Source: Halobium salinum
GTDB taxonomy: Archaea > Halobacteriota > Halobacteria > Halobacteriales > Haloferacaceae
DNA: 64,000 bases
Assembly: GCF_026586625.1 (NCBI RefSeq)
Contig: NZ_JAODIW010000005.1
Location: 1-64,000 of the forward strand
Reading direction: 5' to 3'
The notes below the pieces were generated by a model. The model searched no databases. It was not told where the DNA came from and was given only the letters and a program-made list of their open reading frames with translations. Every line of letters begins with the position of its first letter. The first letter of the stretch is position 1. Of this stretch, positions 19,259 to 26,530 are shown one piece after another. Both the position numbers and the translations under genes were made by a program.

Positions 19259-19588
19259 CTATCCATCGACGACGTGCGTCTCGAGGTCCCGTGTCCAGTA
19301 CGTCGCGGGGCCACCGGGGTTACAGCGAGTACACAGCTGCAACGGCCCTTCGAGATGCCCGAGTTCGACACGGAATCGCGTCAGTGCAGTGAGCGTATCG
19401 ACGACGAGACCACAGCCATCGCAAACGTGGTAATCACGCTCGTCGGGGTCGGGCCGCGCTTGGACGGCACAGGCGACACAGATCTGGTGGGTGACCCGCT
19501 CGTCTTCCCCCCACGTATACGCTGTTCCTGCCGTGAATCCAGGTGCTGCATCACAGAAGGCACAGCCGGAGAGCGTCTGCTGCATCAC
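19259..19588 (-). CDS. Cysteine-rich zinc-binding protein (DUF7558-like)
   Basis: A 109-residue protein with four paired cysteine motifs: CAFCDAAP near residue 9, CVACAVQ near 38, CDGCGLVVD near 56 and CTRC near 86. The layout suggests two zinc sites. It resembles a haloarchaeal family often found on plasmids and integrated elements. Function unknown; a role in nucleic-acid or protein binding is only inferred from the fingers. Its start overlaps the stop of the upstream gene by four bases. Confidence 0.65.
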   Translation of the reverse strand: MMQQTLSGCAFCDAAPGFTAGTAYTWGEDERVTHQICVACAVQARPDPDERDYHVCDGCGLVVDTLTALTRFRVELGHLEGPLQLCTRCNPGGPATYWTRDLETHVVDG

Positions 19589-19875
19589 TCGTCAGCCTCC
19601 CCTGTATCGTGGGCAGCCGACCAGCCGCAGTGGAACACGGCGAGTTGCCGAATCGAGTCGAACGCTTCGCCACTCGGTTCGTGGACCAACACTCGCTGCT
19701 CGGCGACCGCCGTCACGATACCGTCGTCGACGAGGTTACTGACGAGTTGTCGCGCCGTCGTCTTGTCGACGTCCGCCGTTGACACCCGGGCTGCATCCCG
19801 GTCCTGTGCGAGAAGTTCGGTTTCGAACCGCTCGTGATCGGCTGCTGTATCATCGAATGCGTCTGGAGCAGTCAT
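19585..19875 (-). CDS. Hypothetical acidic protein with helix-turn-helix-like segment
   Basis: A 96-residue protein, MTAPDAFDDTAADHERFETE onward. Residues about 34-55 (DKTTARQLVSNLVDDGIV) look like a short winged-helix segment; the C-terminus has the sequence AVFHCGWSAAHDTGEADE. Coupled by ATGA to the cysteine-rich gene downstream, so the two are probably co-translated. No family is firmly recognised. Confidence 0.5.
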   Translation of the reverse strand: MTAPDAFDDTAADHERFETELLAQDRDAARVSTADVDKTTARQLVSNLVDDGIVTAVAEQRVLVHEPSGEAFDSIRQLAVFHCGWSAAHDTGEADE

Positions 19876-19994
19876 GTAAATTCACGCTCCGGCACGCTCG
19901 CAGGCGCGCCTCGCGCCTTGGGCGTCGACAGACATGCCTCTTTACTGGGGAGGACCTGGCATACTCACTGCTTCGGAGAATGGATCAAATTCAC

Positions 19995-20050
19995 GACTTT
20001 CTTTCACCGTAGTTGTCGGTGACTCAGCTTCTAGAGACAGAGCGTGAGTC
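19995..20050 (+). repeat. Outer inverted repeat, left copy (56 bases)
   Basis: This 56-base sequence recurs in inverted orientation at 22501-22556 with 55 of 56 positions identical. It contains a dyad tcaccg-7-cggtga (20004-20009 and 20017-20022), the shape of a tyrosine-recombinase core site, then tgactcagc and agacagagcgtg. It bounds the left side of a 2562-base segment carrying a recombinase and VapBC. Confidence 0.8.
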
Positions 20051-20112
20051 TCCGAAAAGCGTTGAGCGAGAATAGACAGAAAAGCTATAATCAGTCGAAA
20101 GGAGCCTTCGAT

Positions 20113-20250
20113 GTGTACCTCCTATTCGGTTCGCCTTCGACTGGTCCAGATATACTTCTAATCGGCGTTTTTTGGATTCTGGTAGCCCTCATGTTCGTCG
20201 GGATTTTACGGATTCTCGTTAGGAGATGGTCGTCACGGAACGGGGAATAA
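20113..20250 (+). CDS. Possible small single-helix membrane protein (45 aa)
   Basis: From a GTG the frame gives 45 residues with one hydrophobic helix, DILLIGVFWILVALMFVGIL, followed by a basic tail RILVRRWSSRNGE. That is a positive-inside membrane pattern. An earlier ATG at 20044 is in frame but lies inside the inverted repeat. No family is recognised. It sits between the outer and inner left repeats. Confidence 0.35.
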   Translation: MYLLFGSPSTGPDILLIGVFWILVALMFVGILRILVRRWSSRNGE

Positions 20251-20283
20251 CGGAATCGTCACCGTCCACGTATTCCTGTAGTT

Positions 20284-20311
20284 GCGGCACAACTCTAGGA
20301 GCTGACTCACG
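20284..20311 (+). repeat. Inner inverted repeat, left copy (28 bases)
   Basis: These 28 bases recur inverted at 21184-21211 with one mismatch (at 20291) and immediately flank the recombinase gene. The shared block ctctaggagctgactcacg is also related to the outer repeat (ctctagaagctgagtcacc), so inner and outer repeats look like diverged versions of one site. Confidence 0.75.
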
Positions 20312-20342
20312 TAGGTTCCGCGTGAAAATAAAGGCCGAATCG

Positions 20343-21143
20343 CTACCGGGAGGAGTGAACTGATCGGAGCGCTCGACGCGTGGCCTCGGCAGTTCCATTG
20401 AGATACGTCTCGGCGGTTGCGAGCTTCTCCCAGCCCATGAACGACTGAAGTGGGAGTCCCGTCAGTCCGCGTGAGGCGTGGAACGTGCTCGCGGTCGCAC
20501 GAAGTGCATGCGGGTAGACCCGGTCGCTGTCGAGTCCGTCAGCCACTTCGGCCGCGTCCGTCACGCGCCGATTGACGCTCCCGCGACAGTGTGGGTATGA
20601 TTCCAAGTCCTCGAAGAACCGCTCGATCTCCATCTCGACCCGTATGTCGAAATCGAACGGGATTGCACGGGCACCCGCAGCAGTTTTCGGCGACCACCGC
20701 GTCGAAAGCGCCTGTTCAACGGATAGCTCCTCGTTGTGTTCGGCGATGGAGTGAGCGAGCCTCCGACAGTATCCGCATGGTCCGTCGTCAGTACGGCCCT
20801 TCTGACACCGATCGAATGCCGGGATGCGGATGACTTTCTCGCGCCAGTCGACCCATTGTTCGGTCATGTGAGTGACTTCGCCGGCTCGCATCCCGAGCCG
20901 CCCGGTCGCGAAGATCACGAACCGCGCGAGACTGGCGTACGGTTCCTCGAGTCGCCGGGCTCCTTCGAGGAGCAGTTGGAACTGACGGTCGGTCAACGCA
21001 TCCTCTTTCGAGTTCAGAACCTGTTCCGAGCCGATCAGTCGATCACGCCAGAACCCATCCTGAGATTCACTAGTGTTCGCGGGGTCGACTTTCGAGCTAC
21101 CGTGTCGTCTCTCGTCTGCTCTCCCGCTCGATGTGAACCGCAT
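20343..21143 (-). CDS. Tyrosine recombinase (phage-integrase family)
   Basis: A 266-residue protein with the catalytic domain of a tyrosine recombinase. Visible active-site residues are Arg86 in GRLGMRAGEV, a probable Lys153 in SPKTAAGARAIP, His212 and Arg215 in HALR, Trp238 in MGWEK (third His/Trp position) and nucleophile Tyr247 in ETYLNG. All key residues are present, so the enzyme should be active. A CxxC pair (GPCGYCRR) is inserted near residue 123, as in many haloarchaeal integrases. The N-terminal arm-binding domain is very short. The gene is enclosed by 28-base and then 56-base inverted repeats, which suggests inversion or resolution rather than classical integration. Confidence 0.87.
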   Translation of the reverse strand: MRFTSSGRADERRHGSSKVDPANTSESQDGFWRDRLIGSEQVLNSKEDALTDRQFQLLLEGARRLEEPYASLARFVIFATGRLGMRAGEVTHMTEQWVDWREKVIRIPAFDRCQKGRTDDGPCGYCRRLAHSIAEHNEELSVEQALSTRWSPKTAAGARAIPFDFDIRVEMEIERFFEDLESYPHCRGSVNRRVTDAAEVADGLDSDRVYPHALRATASTFHASRGLTGLPLQSFMGWEKLATAETYLNGTAEATRRALRSVHSSR

Positions 21144-21183
21144 TGTATTCTCAAATACGAGAGTTCATACAACTAGGTTTCCT

Positions 21184-21211
21184 CGTGAGTCAGCTCCTAG
21201 AGTCGTGCCGC
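21184..21211 (-). repeat. Inner inverted repeat, right copy (28 bases)
   Basis: Inverted partner of 20284-20311 with 27 of 28 positions identical. It lies 41 bases upstream of the recombinase start codon, so any flipping between the two copies would invert the recombinase gene together with its promoter-proximal sequence. Confidence 0.75.
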
Positions 21212-21257
21212 GAGTGTAGCGCTGGAATTCCTAACAGATTGAGTTCATATTGGAATT

Positions 21258-21289
21258 GGCGTGACCAACTTAGAGGGTAAGTTCAGCAG
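21258..21289 (+). repeat. Direct repeat left of the VapBC pair
   Basis: The 32 bases starting ggcgtgaccaac share ggcgtg, aac, tagagggt and agttcagca with 22103-22134, in the same orientation and spacing. A short dyad (gtgaccaa at 21261-21268 with ttggttac at 21293-21300) allows a hairpin around it. The two copies bracket the toxin-antitoxin genes. Confidence 0.55.
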
Positions 21290-21329
21290 ACTTTGGTTAC
21301 ACTAGTGGGCACAGTAGCAAACTTTACCC

Positions 21330-21345
21330 AGTAGTATGTTCTACT
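21330..21345 (+). promoter_or_regulatory. Candidate operator dyad before the VapB-like gene
   Basis: Perfect 5-base arms agtag and ctact separated by 6 bases end 8 bases before the antitoxin ATG. Ribbon-helix-helix antitoxins usually bind such short dyads to repress their own operon. Only the symmetry and position support this. Confidence 0.35.
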
Positions 21346-21352
21346 AAATGGC

Positions 21353-21628
21353 ATGGCCACGTCGGTAAAGATGGACGACGACACCAAATCCCGTCTCGAA
21401 CGGTTACAGGCCGAGATTCGGCTAAAGACGGGAAAGCGAGTGACGCAGCAGGAAATCTTGGCACGGCTCGTCGAGCATGCCATCGAGTCCAAGGCAGACC
21501 TCATCGACTCGTTCCGCGAGAAGCGTGTTCCGCTTGCTGAATCCGAGCGCGAGAAGTTCCACGAGGGGATGGTCTCGTCCGGAGTCACGACGACCGAGGA
21601 AGACATCGACGACGTGCTGTACGGATGA
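21353..21628 (+). CDS. VapB-like antitoxin (ribbon-helix-helix type)
   Basis: A 91-residue protein. The N-terminus MATSVKMDDDTKSRLERLQA has the beta-strand then helix of a ribbon-helix-helix DNA-binding fold, followed by TGKRVTQQEILARLVEHAI as the second helix. The acidic C-terminus (TTEEDIDDVLYG) is a typical toxin-binding tail. Its stop overlaps the start of the PIN-domain gene by four bases. It should neutralise the toxin and autoregulate the operon through the dyad just upstream. Confidence 0.8.
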   Translation: MATSVKMDDDTKSRLERLQAEIRLKTGKRVTQQEILARLVEHAIESKADLIDSFREKRVPLAESEREKFHEGMVSSGVTTTEEDIDDVLYG

Positions 21629-22053
21629 GTGTCTTCGTCGATACTGGCGTGTTCTTTGCGCACCACGATACGGATGCTGACCGACACGACCAAGCCGTCA
21701 GTGCATTCGACGACTTGTTCGACGGGGAGTTCGGACAACCGTACACGAATGACTACGTTTTCGACGAGACTGTGACGCTTACGCGTGCTCGAACGGGTTC
21801 GTTCGAGGCTGCAGATACTGTCGCCAGTCGCATTCTTGGAGAAGACCCGTTTCCGCGTGTCTTCGAGATGATTCACGTTGAGCCAGATGATGTACGCGCG
21901 TCACTGGAAACGTTTCGTCGATACAACGACCACGATCTCAGTTTCACTGACGCGTCAATAGTCACTCTGTGTGAGTCACGTGGCATAGATGCAGTGTTGA
22001 GCTTCGACACAGATTTCGACGGACTCGTTGACCGTATCGAACCAGGGTACTAG
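21625..22053 (+). CDS. VapC-like PIN-domain ribonuclease toxin
   Basis: A 142-residue PIN domain. Acidic active-site residues are visible: Asp6 in VFVDTGVFFA, Glu near residue 50 in YVFDETVTL, Asp in HDLSFTDASIV near residue 112 and Asp in VLSFDTDFD near 132. Together they form the metal-binding site of VapC-type RNases. It is complete in length and coupled to the antitoxin by an ATGA overlap. The pair lies inside the outer inverted repeats, where it could act as an addiction module keeping the cassette in the genome. Confidence 0.87.
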   Translation: MSVFVDTGVFFAHHDTDADRHDQAVSAFDDLFDGEFGQPYTNDYVFDETVTLTRARTGSFEAADTVASRILGEDPFPRVFEMIHVEPDDVRASLETFRRYNDHDLSFTDASIVTLCESRGIDAVLSFDTDFDGLVDRIEPGY

Positions 22054-22102
22054 TGACTCACCGGGAGTGTCTTACTCAACCCATACAAAAGTTGTCAGAT
22101 GT

Positions 22103-22137
22103 GGCGTGCTGAACGTAGAGGGTGAGTTCAGCACGCC
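22103..22137 (+). repeat. Direct repeat right of VapBC, perfect 12-base hairpin
   Basis: The sequence begins ggcgtgctgaac and ends gttcagcacgcc, a perfect 12-base stem around an 11-base loop containing tagagggtga. The first 32 bases align with 21258-21289 left of the toxin-antitoxin genes. It could be a transcription terminator for vapC or the subterminal hairpin of a mobile unit. Confidence 0.55.
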
Positions 22138-22236
22138 TACCGCTCTTCGGTTCACACTGGATGAGTTGAAGAGACCGATAGGAAGAGCGCACGTGTCTCG
22201 CAGAAAGTATTTGTCTCACGAATCGGCATAGTGCAT

Positions 22237-22377
22237 ATGGACACCTCACTCGCCCTTGCCGTAGTCGTCGTTTTAGGACTAATTGCTATAATAGTGGAGA
22301 TAGGACTCGAACTGAAGCAATATCTAAACAACCGAAGTGAGCAATCCGACTCGAGTACGGCTGAATCAAATACGTAA
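22237..22377 (+). CDS. Small single-helix membrane protein (46 aa)
   Basis: An ATG frame of 46 codons reads MDTSLALAVVVVLGLIAIIV, a membrane helix, then a charged tail EIGLELKQYLNNRSEQSDSS. The short N-terminus and hydrophobic helix fit a small membrane anchor protein. A second one-helix frame lies at the other end of the cassette, near the left outer repeat. Function unknown. Confidence 0.4.
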   Translation: MDTSLALAVVVVLGLIAIIVEIGLELKQYLNNRSEQSDSSTAESNT

Positions 22378-22500
22378 TTCCTCTGTATCTATGATTCCGA
22401 CTCTCCTCTACAGATGACGACCACCCAGTGACCGACTTGCGCCCTGAGTTCAGCACGACGAAACTGGCAGAGCTGCGAGACGTCGTGTCTCCTGGCGATA

Positions 22501-22556
22501 GACTTACGCTCTGTCTCTAGAAGCTGAGTCACCGACAACTACGGTGAAAGAAAGTC
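22501..22556 (-). repeat. Outer inverted repeat, right copy (56 bases)
   Basis: Inverted partner of 19995-20050 with 55 of 56 positions identical; the single difference is in gacttacgct against gactcacgct. Identity stops sharply on the cassette-internal side. The near-perfect conservation implies recent duplication or continued recombination between the copies. Confidence 0.8.
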
Positions 22557-22627
22557 TCGAATCAGCCCTATCCTCTGAAGCTGTGAGACCCCAATCGTCA
22601 AACCGGAAGACACCGATACAGTCTGTA

Positions 22628-22858
22628 ATGGAGAATTCGCGGACGCCGCTCACCTCCAGCGAGGAAGCTGCGCTCGATCACCTCGAGCGGTACCTCGACA
22701 CAGCAGATGACGAGGTCCCCACGCGAGAGGGTGCTGTCGTCTATCTCATGGAGCAGGATATCGAACGTGCCGATGCGCGAGCGTACGTTGAGCAGTTACT
22801 GCTGAAGGGCTACCTCTACGAAGTCGAAGACGAACTGCGGTTGCCATCACGACTCTGA
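22628..22858 (+). CDS. Hypothetical small protein with winged-helix-like fold
   Basis: A 76-residue acidic protein, MENSRTPLTSSEEAALDHLE then DEVPTREGAVVYLMEQDIER and VEQLLLKGYLYEVEDELRL. The helix-turn-helix spacing and final hairpin (GYLYEVEDELRL) resemble a minimal winged helix. An in-frame ATG at 22544 lies inside the inverted repeat and is less likely. Its upstream sequence is in the invertible segment, so its expression could depend on cassette orientation. Confidence 0.5.
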   Translation: MENSRTPLTSSEEAALDHLERYLDTADDEVPTREGAVVYLMEQDIERADARAYVEQLLLKGYLYEVEDELRLPSRL

Positions 22859-23022: not shown

Positions 23023-24297
23023 CTATGAACGACCCCCACCCACTAGCCGTTTCGCCTTCTCCCAGATCGACTCACCAGCTGATCCTGGCTCGTCAGCAAC
23101 CTCCTGATCTCGGGCGGTCTGCTCTTGCACGGTTGACGCGGATGATGCTCTCAACTCGGCGATTTCCGCTTCGAGAGACTCGATTTGTTCCTGCTGTTGT
23201 TCGATGGTTTCCGCCTGCTGTTCGAGTTTCGCGGACAAAATCTGGTTCTGCTCTTTGAGATAAACACGCTCGCGACTATCCAACTGCTCGTCGGCTCCCG
23301 TCTGTGGCGTCCCAATTGACTCATTCACCTCTGTCGTGGGTGGCTGCTTGGGCTGACCTCTCGTATCGGAATGGTCGCTCTCTTCTTCAGTAGGTTCGAA
23401 GAAGTCCGTCGTGCTCCCGATAGCGCGCTCGATGGTTCGCTCACCGTAGGTCGCCCCATCAGCGAAGTGCTGTTCGTCCCACTTCGGGCGGATCAGTCCG
23501 GACTCACGAAACAGACGGTCGACACGCGTTGGGTCGCCGCCAGTCCAGAACGCAAGCAGGCAACAGAGCGCCATATCAGCTTCTGACTGGCTCTCGTAGC
23601 CATGGATGTCCCCACCCCACAGTCGGTCGAACTTCTCGCCGTTGGCGGCGGTCTGGGCCTTCTCGATGAGTTCCTCGTCAGTAAGATCGACATCTCCCGT
23701 CGGTGACTTCGTGGTACCCGTCGCCTGTTTTGGTTCCCCGCTGGCCATCGACGGCTTCCGGACGTATTCACGATGAACCTCCGCAAGTGCCTCCTGTCGT
23801 GCTTCGACCGTTTGCGGCGTGACATCGACGCGATCGCCAGTCATTGTGAAGAATCGCGCCGAGTCGTACATTTCCACGCTTCCCGTTCGATTCCGGCCCT
23901 CGGGTAACTCGCCCTCAACGAGGACGTGGAAGCCGGTTCCTGACGGTGATACCTCGGTGTAGGAGTCGAGTCGATTGACGATGTCTCGAGCATCGTCGTC
24001 TACGTGTCCTGTTTCAGGGTCACGGCAGTCGTCAAGGTCGACACCGACGAACGGATCGTTGTCGGTGAACACAAAGCCAAGTCCATCCGCTTCGTCGTTT
24101 TGAGCGTACTCGACTGCAGTCTCGAAGTCGGTCCATGTGTCTCGATCAGTCGATGACGCGAAACCACCGGTCCGGGGTGTGATGGGAATCTTCGTCGGCT
24201 TTCCATCGCGGGTTTGCTCGTTCCAACAGACCCACTGGTCACGTTCGACGAGCGCAGTCGGCAACACCCCTCTGTCGATGTGTTCTCGTTCACTCAT
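23023..24297 (-). CDS. NrS-1-like primase-polymerase, putative replication initiator
   Basis: A 424-residue protein when started at MSEREHIDRGVLP. The N-terminal 160 residues carry the archaeo-eukaryotic primase pattern: Asp87 and Asp89 in FVGVDLDDC, His124 in SGTGFHVLVEG, and a third acidic position near 155 in FFTMTGD. This resembles the phage NrS-1 polymerase group, with WVCWNEQTRDGKPTKIP at the front. A helical domain (residues about 200-300, with CCLLAFWTGGDPTRVDRLFR) follows, then a coiled coil (about 345-400, with QQAETIEQQQEQIESLEAEI). The gene is directly preceded by iteron-like repeats, supporting a role as plasmid or virus replication protein. Confidence 0.75.
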   Translation of the reverse strand: MSEREHIDRGVLPTALVERDQWVCWNEQTRDGKPTKIPITPRTGGFASSTDRDTWTDFETAVEYAQNDEADGLGFVFTDNDPFVGVDLDDCRDPETGHVDDDARDIVNRLDSYTEVSPSGTGFHVLVEGELPEGRNRTGSVEMYDSARFFTMTGDRVDVTPQTVEARQEALAEVHREYVRKPSMASGEPKQATGTTKSPTGDVDLTDEELIEKAQTAANGEKFDRLWGGDIHGYESQSEADMALCCLLAFWTGGDPTRVDRLFRESGLIRPKWDEQHFADGATYGERTIERAIGSTTDFFEPTEEESDHSDTRGQPKQPPTTEVNESIGTPQTGADEQLDSRERVYLKEQNQILSAKLEQQAETIEQQQEQIESLEAEIAELRASSASTVQEQTARDQEVADEPGSAGESIWEKAKRLVGGGRS

Positions 24298-24426
24298 ACT
24301 CAGTAACTCCAATTGCGAGCCACCGCTCTCTGCTCGCTGACAAAATCCCCTTTTGAAACGCGCTTCAGCGCAACCTCCCGCCCAACGGCAACCCCCTTCT
24401 CTATATTAGTTGGTTTTCGGCTTCCG

Positions 24427-24590
24427 TTTACCCGGACCACCGCTGCCGTCTTGCGATTTACTCGGGACAGCTGGTCTGGCGATGATTGGCCGACTTGCTT
24501 TACCCGGGACAGCCGTCCCGTCTTGCGATTCCCGGTTCGATTCATTTTACCCAGGACAGGTACCCAGACCAGCGGTTCCGTCTGGCGATT
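24427..24590. repeat. Four iteron-like direct repeats, candidate replication origin
   Basis: Four units start at about 24427, 24457, 24499 and 24546. Each begins tttac, carries a variant of ccgggacag, and ends gtcttgcgat or gtctggcgat. Unit lengths are about 27-45 bases, and the first two are immediately adjacent. They lie in the 331-base gap just upstream of the primase-polymerase-like gene, the usual position of iterons bound by a cognate Rep. An AT-rich patch (tctatattagttggtttt) at about 24400-24417 could be the unwinding element. Confidence 0.6.
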
Positions 24591-24628
24591 TCGGCGAGCT
24601 ATCGCCGAATGGAAGAACAATCCGAACA

Positions 24629-26530
24629 TCAGTCAAGCAACTCCCATCCGGCTTCCGTCAGATCAGCGCCAACGTAGCACCTCACTCGACTTCCATCGAC
24701 GCGGCGACGACTCGTCTCGATATCGAGGAGGCCGCGGAGGTTCCGCGAGAACCACACCTTTGTCTCAGTTGGTTCATCGTGATGCTCGGCGCAAATCACG
24801 TATGCTTGGTACAGGTCGTTTTTCGGTACGATTGCGTCGGGGTCCTCCTCAACGTATGTCTGTACGAATCGCTCCAAGTTCCACTCACCGTCGTCTAATG
24901 TCTCGATATCAGGTACAGTCTCATCGCTAAACGAGGGCTCAACAGTATCTGTGTTCTCGATCTCATCGGCGCTCTCCTCACTAGTTTCGCTCTCTTCTAT
25001 CGATTCTCCGCATTGTCCAGTACAGTCCTTACCGGCTATCCGTGGTGAGTCCGTAATTAGTGTAGAGAGTGGTTGTGTTGTTCCATCTCCCCCATAGACT
25101 ACCGGATCGCCTCCCTCGGGGAGGATGAGAATTCGATAGGTGTCGTGAGTGAATGCAGGAACCGGTAGCTCAACCTCTGGGACGAATGGCTTCTTGACCG
25201 TCACCCACTCCGCCTCGAACGCAGCCTTCGAGTCGTAGGTCTGGCGGGCATCACCAGTAGTGACGACGTATTCTCCCATCGTCTCATCGTAGGTATATAC
25301 GCCGGGAACTGCGTGCTCGGAAATTGACTCGTCTTGCGAAACCCGGGTGTACTCCGTCCCATCACCGTCGAGGAGTACTATCTGATCGTCTTCGACACGC
25401 CAGACAGTCCGCCGCGAATCATCGGGACCGGTCACTGGCCGTACGGCCGAGAGCCGTTCACCGGTTGATGCTCGTCGAGCTTTGAGCGGTTCGTCAAACG
25501 TGTAGAGGTGTGGCGTTTCGTTCTCACCTGCACGTTCCTTGACCGGTGGTCGAAGAATGCGATCGACGCGCTCAGCCCAGAACGTCTCGGTTTTCTCTGG
25601 CCGAACGACGAATAGCGGGATCGTTTCCTCGTCCTGTGCCTTTCGGAGGTTCGTGAGCACTTTGACCGGGTTTTCGGGTGTCGTCGTCTCGACCTCGATA
25701 GCGAACTCCACATCCAACTCTGGATGGGTTGCCCGACCGTCGGGCTGTTCGCTTCGATCCTGTGTGAGAACACGAGCGTCGAACCCCGCCGCGGTTAACG
25801 CTCGCTCGATTTCGTAAACACCATCGTCGTGGTCGCTTCCTCCTGCCGCTTGCACGTCACCTGTGTCGGGCGTGACGACCTCCTCACCGCGTTCGGTGAG
25901 CGAGATGGCTAACTCCCCAGTATCGGTGTCCAAATCCACAGCAAGCAACTGTGAGCGCTCTCGGACTGCACCGAGTTCTTCGTAGCTCGGCGGGTCGGCA
26001 TCGACGTCGGCGAATAGGCTCCGAAGCTCGTCGTCCACCTCCTCTACCGGAACGTCGCCATTCTCTTCTCGAACTCCATTGCGAAGCTGAATCGTACGGA
26101 TGACCTTTGCGAGGGCCTGATCGAGATTTCCATTATCCGTCCCGAGCCTCACTTGCACATCCTCAGGCGAATCACGTGGCTCCGGGACCGAATCAGCAAT
26201 TCCGAACTCCGCGTTCGTCCGCTCTTTTACGCGCTCAATTGCTGCCTCGACGCGCACTTCCTCGTCGCCAGTAAGTGGCTGGTCGCTCTCAGGGTGACCC
26301 GGAGGAATTGGAAGCGGGGCAACGCTGAACGGTGTCGGACCGGATTTGCAAAACTCCGGACTCGGTACCTGTGCGGGCGATACTGAGACGTTCCCAATCC
26401 CATCACGCAGATAATTATCGCTCCTTCGTACGTTTGAGTCATTCATTTGCAACAAACGTTTGTAACACGTGTTTGCAGCAGCCACGTGAATCAACGCTTC
26501 AGCCTCCGCCAATGCATCACTACCGGTCAT
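24629..26530 (-). CDS. Large plasmid-type protein with primase-C-like winged helix at C-terminus
   Basis: A 633-residue acidic protein starting MTGSDALAEAEALIHVAAAN; a 22-codon upstream extension would overlap the divergent gene. Three regions are visible. An N-terminal helical part. A central region (residues about 250-330) with a nuclease- or ATPase-tail-like signature, VEFAIEVETTTPENPVKVL then NLRKAQDEETIPLFVVRP, seen at the end of haloarchaeal HerA/conjugation-type proteins. A C-terminal 70-residue winged helix, VPKNDLYQAYVICAEHHDEP then SRRRVDGSRVRCYVG, resembling the domain at the end of P4/D5-type primases. No ATPase motor is present. It may assist replication with the neighbouring Rep; exact function unknown. 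Confidence 0.55.
   Translation of the reverse strand: MTGSDALAEAEALIHVAAANTCYKRLLQMNDSNVRRSDNYLRDGIGNVSVSPAQVPSPEFCKSGPTPFSVAPLPIPPGHPESDQPLTGDEEVRVEAAIERVKERTNAEFGIADSVPEPRDSPEDVQVRLGTDNGNLDQALAKVIRTIQLRNGVREENGDVPVEEVDDELRSLFADVDADPPSYEELGAVRERSQLLAVDLDTDTGELAISLTERGEEVVTPDTGDVQAAGGSDHDDGVYEIERALTAAGFDARVLTQDRSEQPDGRATHPELDVEFAIEVETTTPENPVKVLTNLRKAQDEETIPLFVVRPEKTETFWAERVDRILRPPVKERAGENETPHLYTFDEPLKARRASTGERLSAVRPVTGPDDSRRTVWRVEDDQIVLLDGDGTEYTRVSQDESISEHAVPGVYTYDETMGEYVVTTGDARQTYDSKAAFEAEWVTVKKPFVPEVELPVPAFTHDTYRILILPEGGDPVVYGGDGTTQPLSTLITDSPRIAGKDCTGQCGESIEESETSEESADEIENTDTVEPSFSDETVPDIETLDDGEWNLERFVQTYVEEDPDAIVPKNDLYQAYVICAEHHDEPTETKVWFSRNLRGLLDIETSRRRVDGSRVRCYVGADLTEAGWELLD

Follow-up and report, generated by a model that had tools for sequence, protein, structure and literature searches.

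The TraB protein of Streptomyces reads its clt repeats in a plasmid-specific manner by means of a winged helix (WH), and in the alpha protein of phage P4 a C-terminal WH serves as the origin-binding domain. TraB is a hexameric, pump-type ATPase that recognizes short repeats carried by the plasmid that encodes it (PMC4170104), and alpha combines origin recognition, helicase and primase functions, according to a work cited in PMC9611036. At the vegetative origin (oriV) of RSF1010, the work is divided among separate proteins, with RepC at the iterons, RepA as the helicase and RepB' as the primase at ssi hairpins (PMC4234260). The primase of phage NrS-1 recognizes the site TTTGGTTA (PMC8718748). 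Among open-licence papers, no description was found of a module that joins a WH, iterons, a dyad and a primase-polymerase (PrimPol). We propose, with the scales about level, that the array described here is the cis-acting initiation site of such a module, which is widespread on haloarchaeal plasmids and processes their DNA, most likely for transfer or establishment, and of which the copy analysed here is truncated.

The array lies in the window, by which we mean the whole 64,000-nt stretch of Halobium salinum DNA that was analysed. A gap of 331 bp (24298-24628, 56% GC overall) separates the PrimPol gene from the gene upstream of it, both on the minus strand. The first-pass annotation had reported four repeats in front of the primase gene, and these are real: four composite units, each made of a box B (ATCGC[A/C]AGAC) and an iteron (consensus TGTCCCGGGTAAA), occur on the minus strand. 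They sit inside the gap but do not fill it as had been supposed, their extent being just 24427..24590. Unit 1 carries box B ATCGCCAGAC (24580..24589) and iteron TGTCCTGGGTAA (24547..24558), together with a partial extra iteron copy, GGTCTGGGTA (24561-24570); unit 2 has box B ATCGCAAGAC (24520..24529) and iteron TGTCCCGGGTAA (24500..24511); unit 3 has box B ATCGCCAGAC (24474..24483) and iteron TGTCCCGAGTAA (24458..24469); and unit 4 has box B ATCGCAAGAC (24448..24457) and a degenerate iteron, GTGGTCCGGGTAAA (24427..24440), all on the minus strand. Read on the gene strand, the iteron words are TGTCCCGGGTAAA, TGTCCTGGGTAAA, TGTCCCGAGTAAA and the degenerate GTGGTCCGGGTAAA, and the distance from box to iteron is variable. 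On that strand the four units are followed by a conserved dyad, AACCAACTAATATAG...GTTGG (24382..24415, minus strand; arms at 24409-24413 and 24382-24386), and then by ~85 bp leading to the PrimPol start codon. Within the gap, AT content peaks at the dyad, where the best 20-nt stretch is 75% AT.

A family of 12-mers with four members occurs in the 330 bp before the PrimPol gene. Dinucleotide shuffles gave at most three members (mean 2.08), and none of 60 reached four, which places the direct repeats beyond chance. The perfect iteron occurs a single time in the 64-kb window, and every copy with at most one mismatch falls within the array. Single 13-14-mer matches with three mismatches are at chance level window-wide, and the significance resides in the clustering of the repeats rather than in single matches.

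The gene that the array precedes (23023..24297, minus strand) encodes a 424-aa protein that is an NrS-1-type PrimPol of the AEP fold, with a D-x-D and H catalytic motif, a helix-bundle domain (HBD) and a C-terminal predicted coiled coil. A profile of 28 homologues matches the crystal structures of the NrS-1 primase-polymerase (E about 1e-54); the window protein itself matches the Pfam NrS-1 HBD (PF22763; 104.5 bits, E 2.6e-30, residues 237-302) and PHROG 1829 (E 1e-98). Active-site residues had been assigned as D87/D89, H124 and D155. The first three are invariant in the 28 homologues, but position 155 varies (D in 20, N in 3, E in 2, A in 2 and K in 1), and the assignment of D155 was wrong. 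Beyond the HBD, no helicase family was matched in Pfam or PHROG, there being just a long, strongly helical and coiled-coil-like C-terminus. The AlphaFold model of the protein is poor (pLDDT 56) and was left out of the argument, and NCBIfam names neither the PrimPol nor the upstream protein. Relatives are present in 110 of the 171 genomes of the family, and more distant ones appear in 505 phage records.

The regions upstream of PrimPol were compared at 83 loci, comprising 82 homologues and the window, drawn from plasmids, genome contigs and family genomes, with some being copies of the same record. At 58 of the 83, a common plan is found: an upstream protein ending in a WH (signature K.WF.R.L...Y.G), then iterons, then a dyad that opens with CCAACTAGTATAG, then PrimPol. 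This confirms that the architecture is conserved. The first-pass annotation had raised the prospect that the repeats might be missing upstream of homologous genes, or that homologues might always be chromosomal without them; instead the plan is widely kept, and PrimPol relatives occur in 137 plasmid records. Of the loci with neither WH nor dyad, most are on large chromosomal contigs or belong to a different subclass (L106-L119). The two features are also missing from a few plasmid-size contigs, for example pHTIA (L042), which has a transposase gene directly upstream, and on one plasmid (L045) a 181-aa gene with the WH, and with no motor, adjoins the iterons. At two loci on large contigs from family genomes (L110, L114), PrimPol homologues outside the WH/dyad plan are preceded by 4-6 repeats, GTACACCCCTGG and TTCTACACCCAC, perhaps representing another branch of the same design.

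The word of the iteron varies by element, at a similar offset from the gene, and 11 word classes were scored, among them TGTTCCACCC, GTTACGGC, GGTCAGGGG, TGTTCAGGGCA, TGTCCACGCA and GTGTGACACCC. Because the word is element-specific, a literal search for the window iteron upstream of homologues returned almost nothing, and the plan emerged from side-by-side reading. The window is unusual among the compared loci in having four composite units. A box, AAATCGCAAGACGG, was matched with at most 3 mismatches at 28 of 47 loci as opposed to 15 of 940 mononucleotide shuffles, a figure that is descriptive rather than an independent test, since the consensus was derived from the same regions and the window is a perfect match to it. 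In most loci having the box, an iteron follows within ~10 nt. Where loci share an iteron type and their spacers have diverged, the iterons are 83-90% identical against 47-54% for the spacers; iterons kept amid unconserved spacers point to selection on the iterons.

The gene upstream of the gap (24629..26374, minus strand; 581 aa with homology) is the C-terminal remnant of a conjugative ATPase of the T4CP/HerA type. Starting at 26374, it aligns to residues 901-1493 of a 1501-aa homologue at 53-55% identity, and nothing matching the first 900 residues of that homologue was found in the 64-kb window. By this alignment, the window copy is a truncated remnant that lacks the ATPase's motor half. Intact plasmids have the WH at the end of a 1000-1500-aa protein whose motor matches DUF87/HerA, T4SS-DNA_transf, TraG-D_C and TrwB, and whose gene directly follows VirB4-type genes. 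The module thus adjoins a coupling ATPase and type IV secretion system (T4SS) genes in those plasmids; the window keeps the C-terminus of the ATPase alone, and no T4SS homologue or secretion gene was found in it.

The C-terminal WH (24653..24907, minus strand) is of Pox_D5/RFX type and is the proposed reader of the iterons. In homologues it matches Pfam Pox_D5 (best E 4e-4, just under the curated cut-off) and, weakly, RFX; in the window it matches PHROG 6088 (E 6.9e-5), a family of phage DNA primases, over the C-terminal part of that family. The AlphaFold model has a pLDDT of 72 overall and 82-90 over the WH, and its top fold matches are the DNA-binding domains of RFX1 and RFX5 (TM 0.75-0.79 by target length; E 1.5e-3 and 3.8e-3). 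RFX1 was likewise the best, although not necessarily significant, match for the Pox_D5 domain in the D5 structure paper (PMC9611036). A profile of the upstream protein gave nothing significant against PDB sequences. Residues ~205-240 of the translated segment 24632-26374 hold an invariant block, QD..PD..A.H...F.IE.ETTTP..P.K.L.NL, that resembles, by eye, a PD-(D/E)XK nuclease core and might stand in for a relaxase.

WH and iterons are exchanged together. With iteron types set by patterns that were written after the sequences had been viewed, iteron type follows WH identity (r 0.71) far more closely than PrimPol identity (r 0.20); corrected for PrimPol, the partial correlation with the WH is 0.71 (permutation p 0.001), and that of PrimPol corrected for the WH is -0.18. 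In 46 pairs of loci, which represent few exchange events since several loci recur, both the PD-(D/E)XK-like body (up to 97%) and PrimPol are at least 80% identical while the iterons differ, and WH identity is only 25-56%. In 40 control pairs with the same iteron, the WH is at least 82% identical. Body and PrimPol being conserved while WH and iterons are replaced, breakpoints must lie on both sides of the WH and iterons, which behave, as far as these comparisons can tell, as an exchangeable specificity cassette. The two are physically adjacent and linkage therefore contributes to their co-inheritance; it could account for joint inheritance, but not for the concerted change of the iterons at all positions. 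We propose that the WH reads the iterons.

The dyad shows covariation of its own. Its arms, CCAAC and GTTGG, are paired in 95.5% of cells across the loci, compared with at most 42% in slid controls, and six cells are altered on both sides with the compensatory forms CCGAC/GTCGG and ACGAC/GTCGT, counts that are inflated by kinship among the sequences. Covariation of the inner hairpin is weaker than that of the outer dyad (75% paired), and the window dyad folded alone has no unusual stability (z 0.10). When no more than one mismatch is allowed, the dyad core has a single occurrence in each of two complete plasmids and a single one in the window, each time in front of PrimPol. Its complement, TAGTTGGTTTT, has TTGGTT in common with the NrS-1 site, a likeness that is suggestive only, given that six bases are shared and that a rough count puts the chance probability at the percent level.

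Around the module, the window is a mosaic. Up to about 29 kb its GC content is 52-62%, and from there on it is 60-75%. A number of genes for universal stress proteins and transporters lie in the low-GC part (1-29000), and some of them have homologues on plasmids. Pieces at 18.09-18.3, 19.26-19.9, 22.59-22.88, 23.4-24.25 and 25.1-26.37 kb match haloarchaeal plasmids, so that the segment is plasmid-derived. Five plasmid sequences carry homologues of two small genes (19259..19875, minus strand) at 63-80% identity; in those that have PrimPol, the homologues adjoin it or lie a few kb downstream of it. Another small gene (22544..22858, plus strand) has homologues on pHTIA and on the plasmid C12, a 104-kb contig of the same genome. 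The first-pass annotation had taken 18.4-27.8 kb for an integrated replicon. Alignment with haloarchaeal plasmids upholds a plasmid derivation, as ~18.1-26.4 kb is partly collinear with circular plasmids; however, the segment is truncated and without a T4SS, and no element ends (tRNA gene or flanking direct repeats) were found in the window, the left border not being settable because the contig (C10) begins at the window's first base. With the ATPase half missing from the upstream gene, it is doubtful that this is an integrated replicon with autonomous activity. A viral source, also suggested at first, found no support here: the closest relatives, at 50-60% identity, are plasmids, and ten ORFs of 18.4-27.5 kb matched no structural PHROG, the only matches being a primase, an integrase, a MazF-like protein and one unknown.

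A recombinase and a toxin-antitoxin pair had been counted as parts of the replicon, yet both lie inside a separate insertion of ~2.65 kb (19964-22587) bounded by 88-nt inverted repeats (19964-20051 and 22500-22587). It holds a tyrosine recombinase (20343-21143) with 28-nt inverted repeats of its own (20284-20311 and 21184-21211) and an RHH/PIN (VapBC-like) pair (21353-22053), and is possibly a recombinase-driven invertible or mobile unit. In C12 the same two flanking genes are uninterrupted and about 36 bp apart, and the recombinase was rejected as evidence of plasmid integration. C12 has T4SS genes and a different HerA/T4CP-type ATPase, and no full PrimPol relative. At this locus (L124, G000:C12:46001-66000), the ATPase is 1451 aa long with a different C-terminus, and two further genes are placed like the "DNA primase"/"primase-associated protein" pair of a Natribaculum luteum plasmid.

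These surroundings bear on whether the window array has any present function. That it is a decaying fossil is an evenly poised question, which applies to the window copy alone and does not conflict with our explanation for the family. Loss of the ATPase N-terminus and of any T4SS in the window, slight degeneracy of the iteron copies and the mosaic character of the low-GC region all speak for decay. Against it, the PrimPol and WH frames are intact with all invariant residues kept, iterons and dyad retain the conserved plan, and the T4SS plasmid of the same genome, C12, could act in trans.

For the family as a whole, we prefer, with modest confidence, a transfer-linked initiation site to a sole vegetative origin. 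The C-terminal WH of the coupling-type ATPase would bind element-specific iterons and load the motor beside its own gene; the motor would then open or pump the DNA, and the helicase-less PrimPol would recognize AAAACCAACTA at the dyad and begin DNA synthesis towards its own gene. The module would thereby constitute an origin of transfer with built-in priming. A role in transfer or establishment is favoured because the module comes directly after type IV secretion genes and the plasmids carry Orc1/Cdc6. A MobA-type relaxase (PF03432) was found in none of the 12 plasmids searched, and MOB-suite classed 135 of the 137 plasmid records with PrimPol relatives as non-mobilizable. Every step of this explanation is computational, and the plasmid without a motor (L045) and the pHTIA PrimPol without WH and dyad count against it.

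That the module is instead a vegetative oriV of the RSF1010 or P4 type, at which the WH binds the iterons, a helicase opens the DNA and PrimPol primes at the hairpin, allowing maintenance independent of Orc1, is somewhat unlikely. Iterons, an AT-rich dyad and a primase gene do stand side by side, the PrimPol is homologous to phage replicative primases, and RSF1010 offers a precedent in which one protein binds the iterons, another is a helicase and a primase works at ssi stem-loops (PMC4234260). However, Orc1/Cdc6 is encoded by all 13 plasmids examined, the module closes the conjugation operon in intact plasmids, its neighbourhood showed no SF3 or DnaB helicase, and GC skew has no turning point at the module in AP017571; whole-plasmid skew of two plasmids was uninformative. 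The initial call of a probable origin stands insofar as the array directly precedes a PrimPol of plasmid type and has a conserved plan, while its vegetative form is not borne out and a transfer origin has at least equal probability; both readings have the recognition and priming steps in common. Least probable is that the repeats are operators and the dyad the PrimPol promoter or leader, with the WH protein autoregulating its operon and no origin present, for although TAGTATAG is TATA-like, stands 100-145 nt ahead of the start codon and has the iterons just upstream of it, the covarying dyad extends upstream of that element, its motif occurs once per plasmid and solely at PrimPol, and 3-6 iterons over 180 bp exceed an ordinary operator.

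Returning to the transfer-linked site, it is conceivable, and we put this forward tentatively, that it belongs to a family of haloarchaeal conjugative plasmids with a split phage-type module of primase, helicase and origin binder, in which PrimPol is a separate gene and an origin-binding WH has been grafted onto a conjugative coupling ATPase that occupies the helicase slot, the WH-iteron cassette giving new types of DNA recognition, for compatibility or for specificity of transfer, without a relaxase. The key genes of haloarchaeal plasmids of this type are annotated "hypothetical", and the module supplies a candidate site, a primase and a named domain as the proposed reader. The natural WH-iteron exchanges are ready-made chimaeras for the study of specificity in laboratory haloarchaea. 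If the proposal is true, an exchangeable recognition cassette would define the identity of these plasmids, in a manner comparable to that of incompatibility iterons or the Streptomyces clt repeats.

Among described systems, NrS-1 PrimPol (NrSPol) has in common with the window family the PrimPol and helix-bundle domains, the D..D..H active site and TTGGTT, which here is conserved beside the gene and in NrS-1 is part of the recognition site. NrS-1 and phage PrimPol-helicase-WH proteins, however, are one chain, whereas here PrimPol and WH are on two, with no fused SF3 helicase and with the WH residing on a separate protein that bears a conjugative ATPase. RSF1010 oriV resembles the module in its split proteins and in having iterons and a hairpin beside the primase function; the present module differs in its archaeal host, its NrS-1-type PrimPol, the additional presence of Orc1 and the absence from view of a RepA-type helicase. 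TraB and clt offer a parallel to the proposed reading of repeats by an ATPase, and are set apart by the full T4SS operon of the intact haloarchaeal plasmids, by the Pox_D5/RFX type of the WH and by the PrimPol and dyad that follow. The P4 origin likewise combines a C-terminal WH as origin reader with repeats near the gene, although in P4 a single protein carries all the domains and the primase is of the Toprim type (PMC4234260). Finally, pRN1 (ORF904) also has an archaeal PrimPol with an HBD, a WH domain and a stem-loop origin, but it has no iterons, its stem-loop is downstream of the gene and an SF3 helicase is present.
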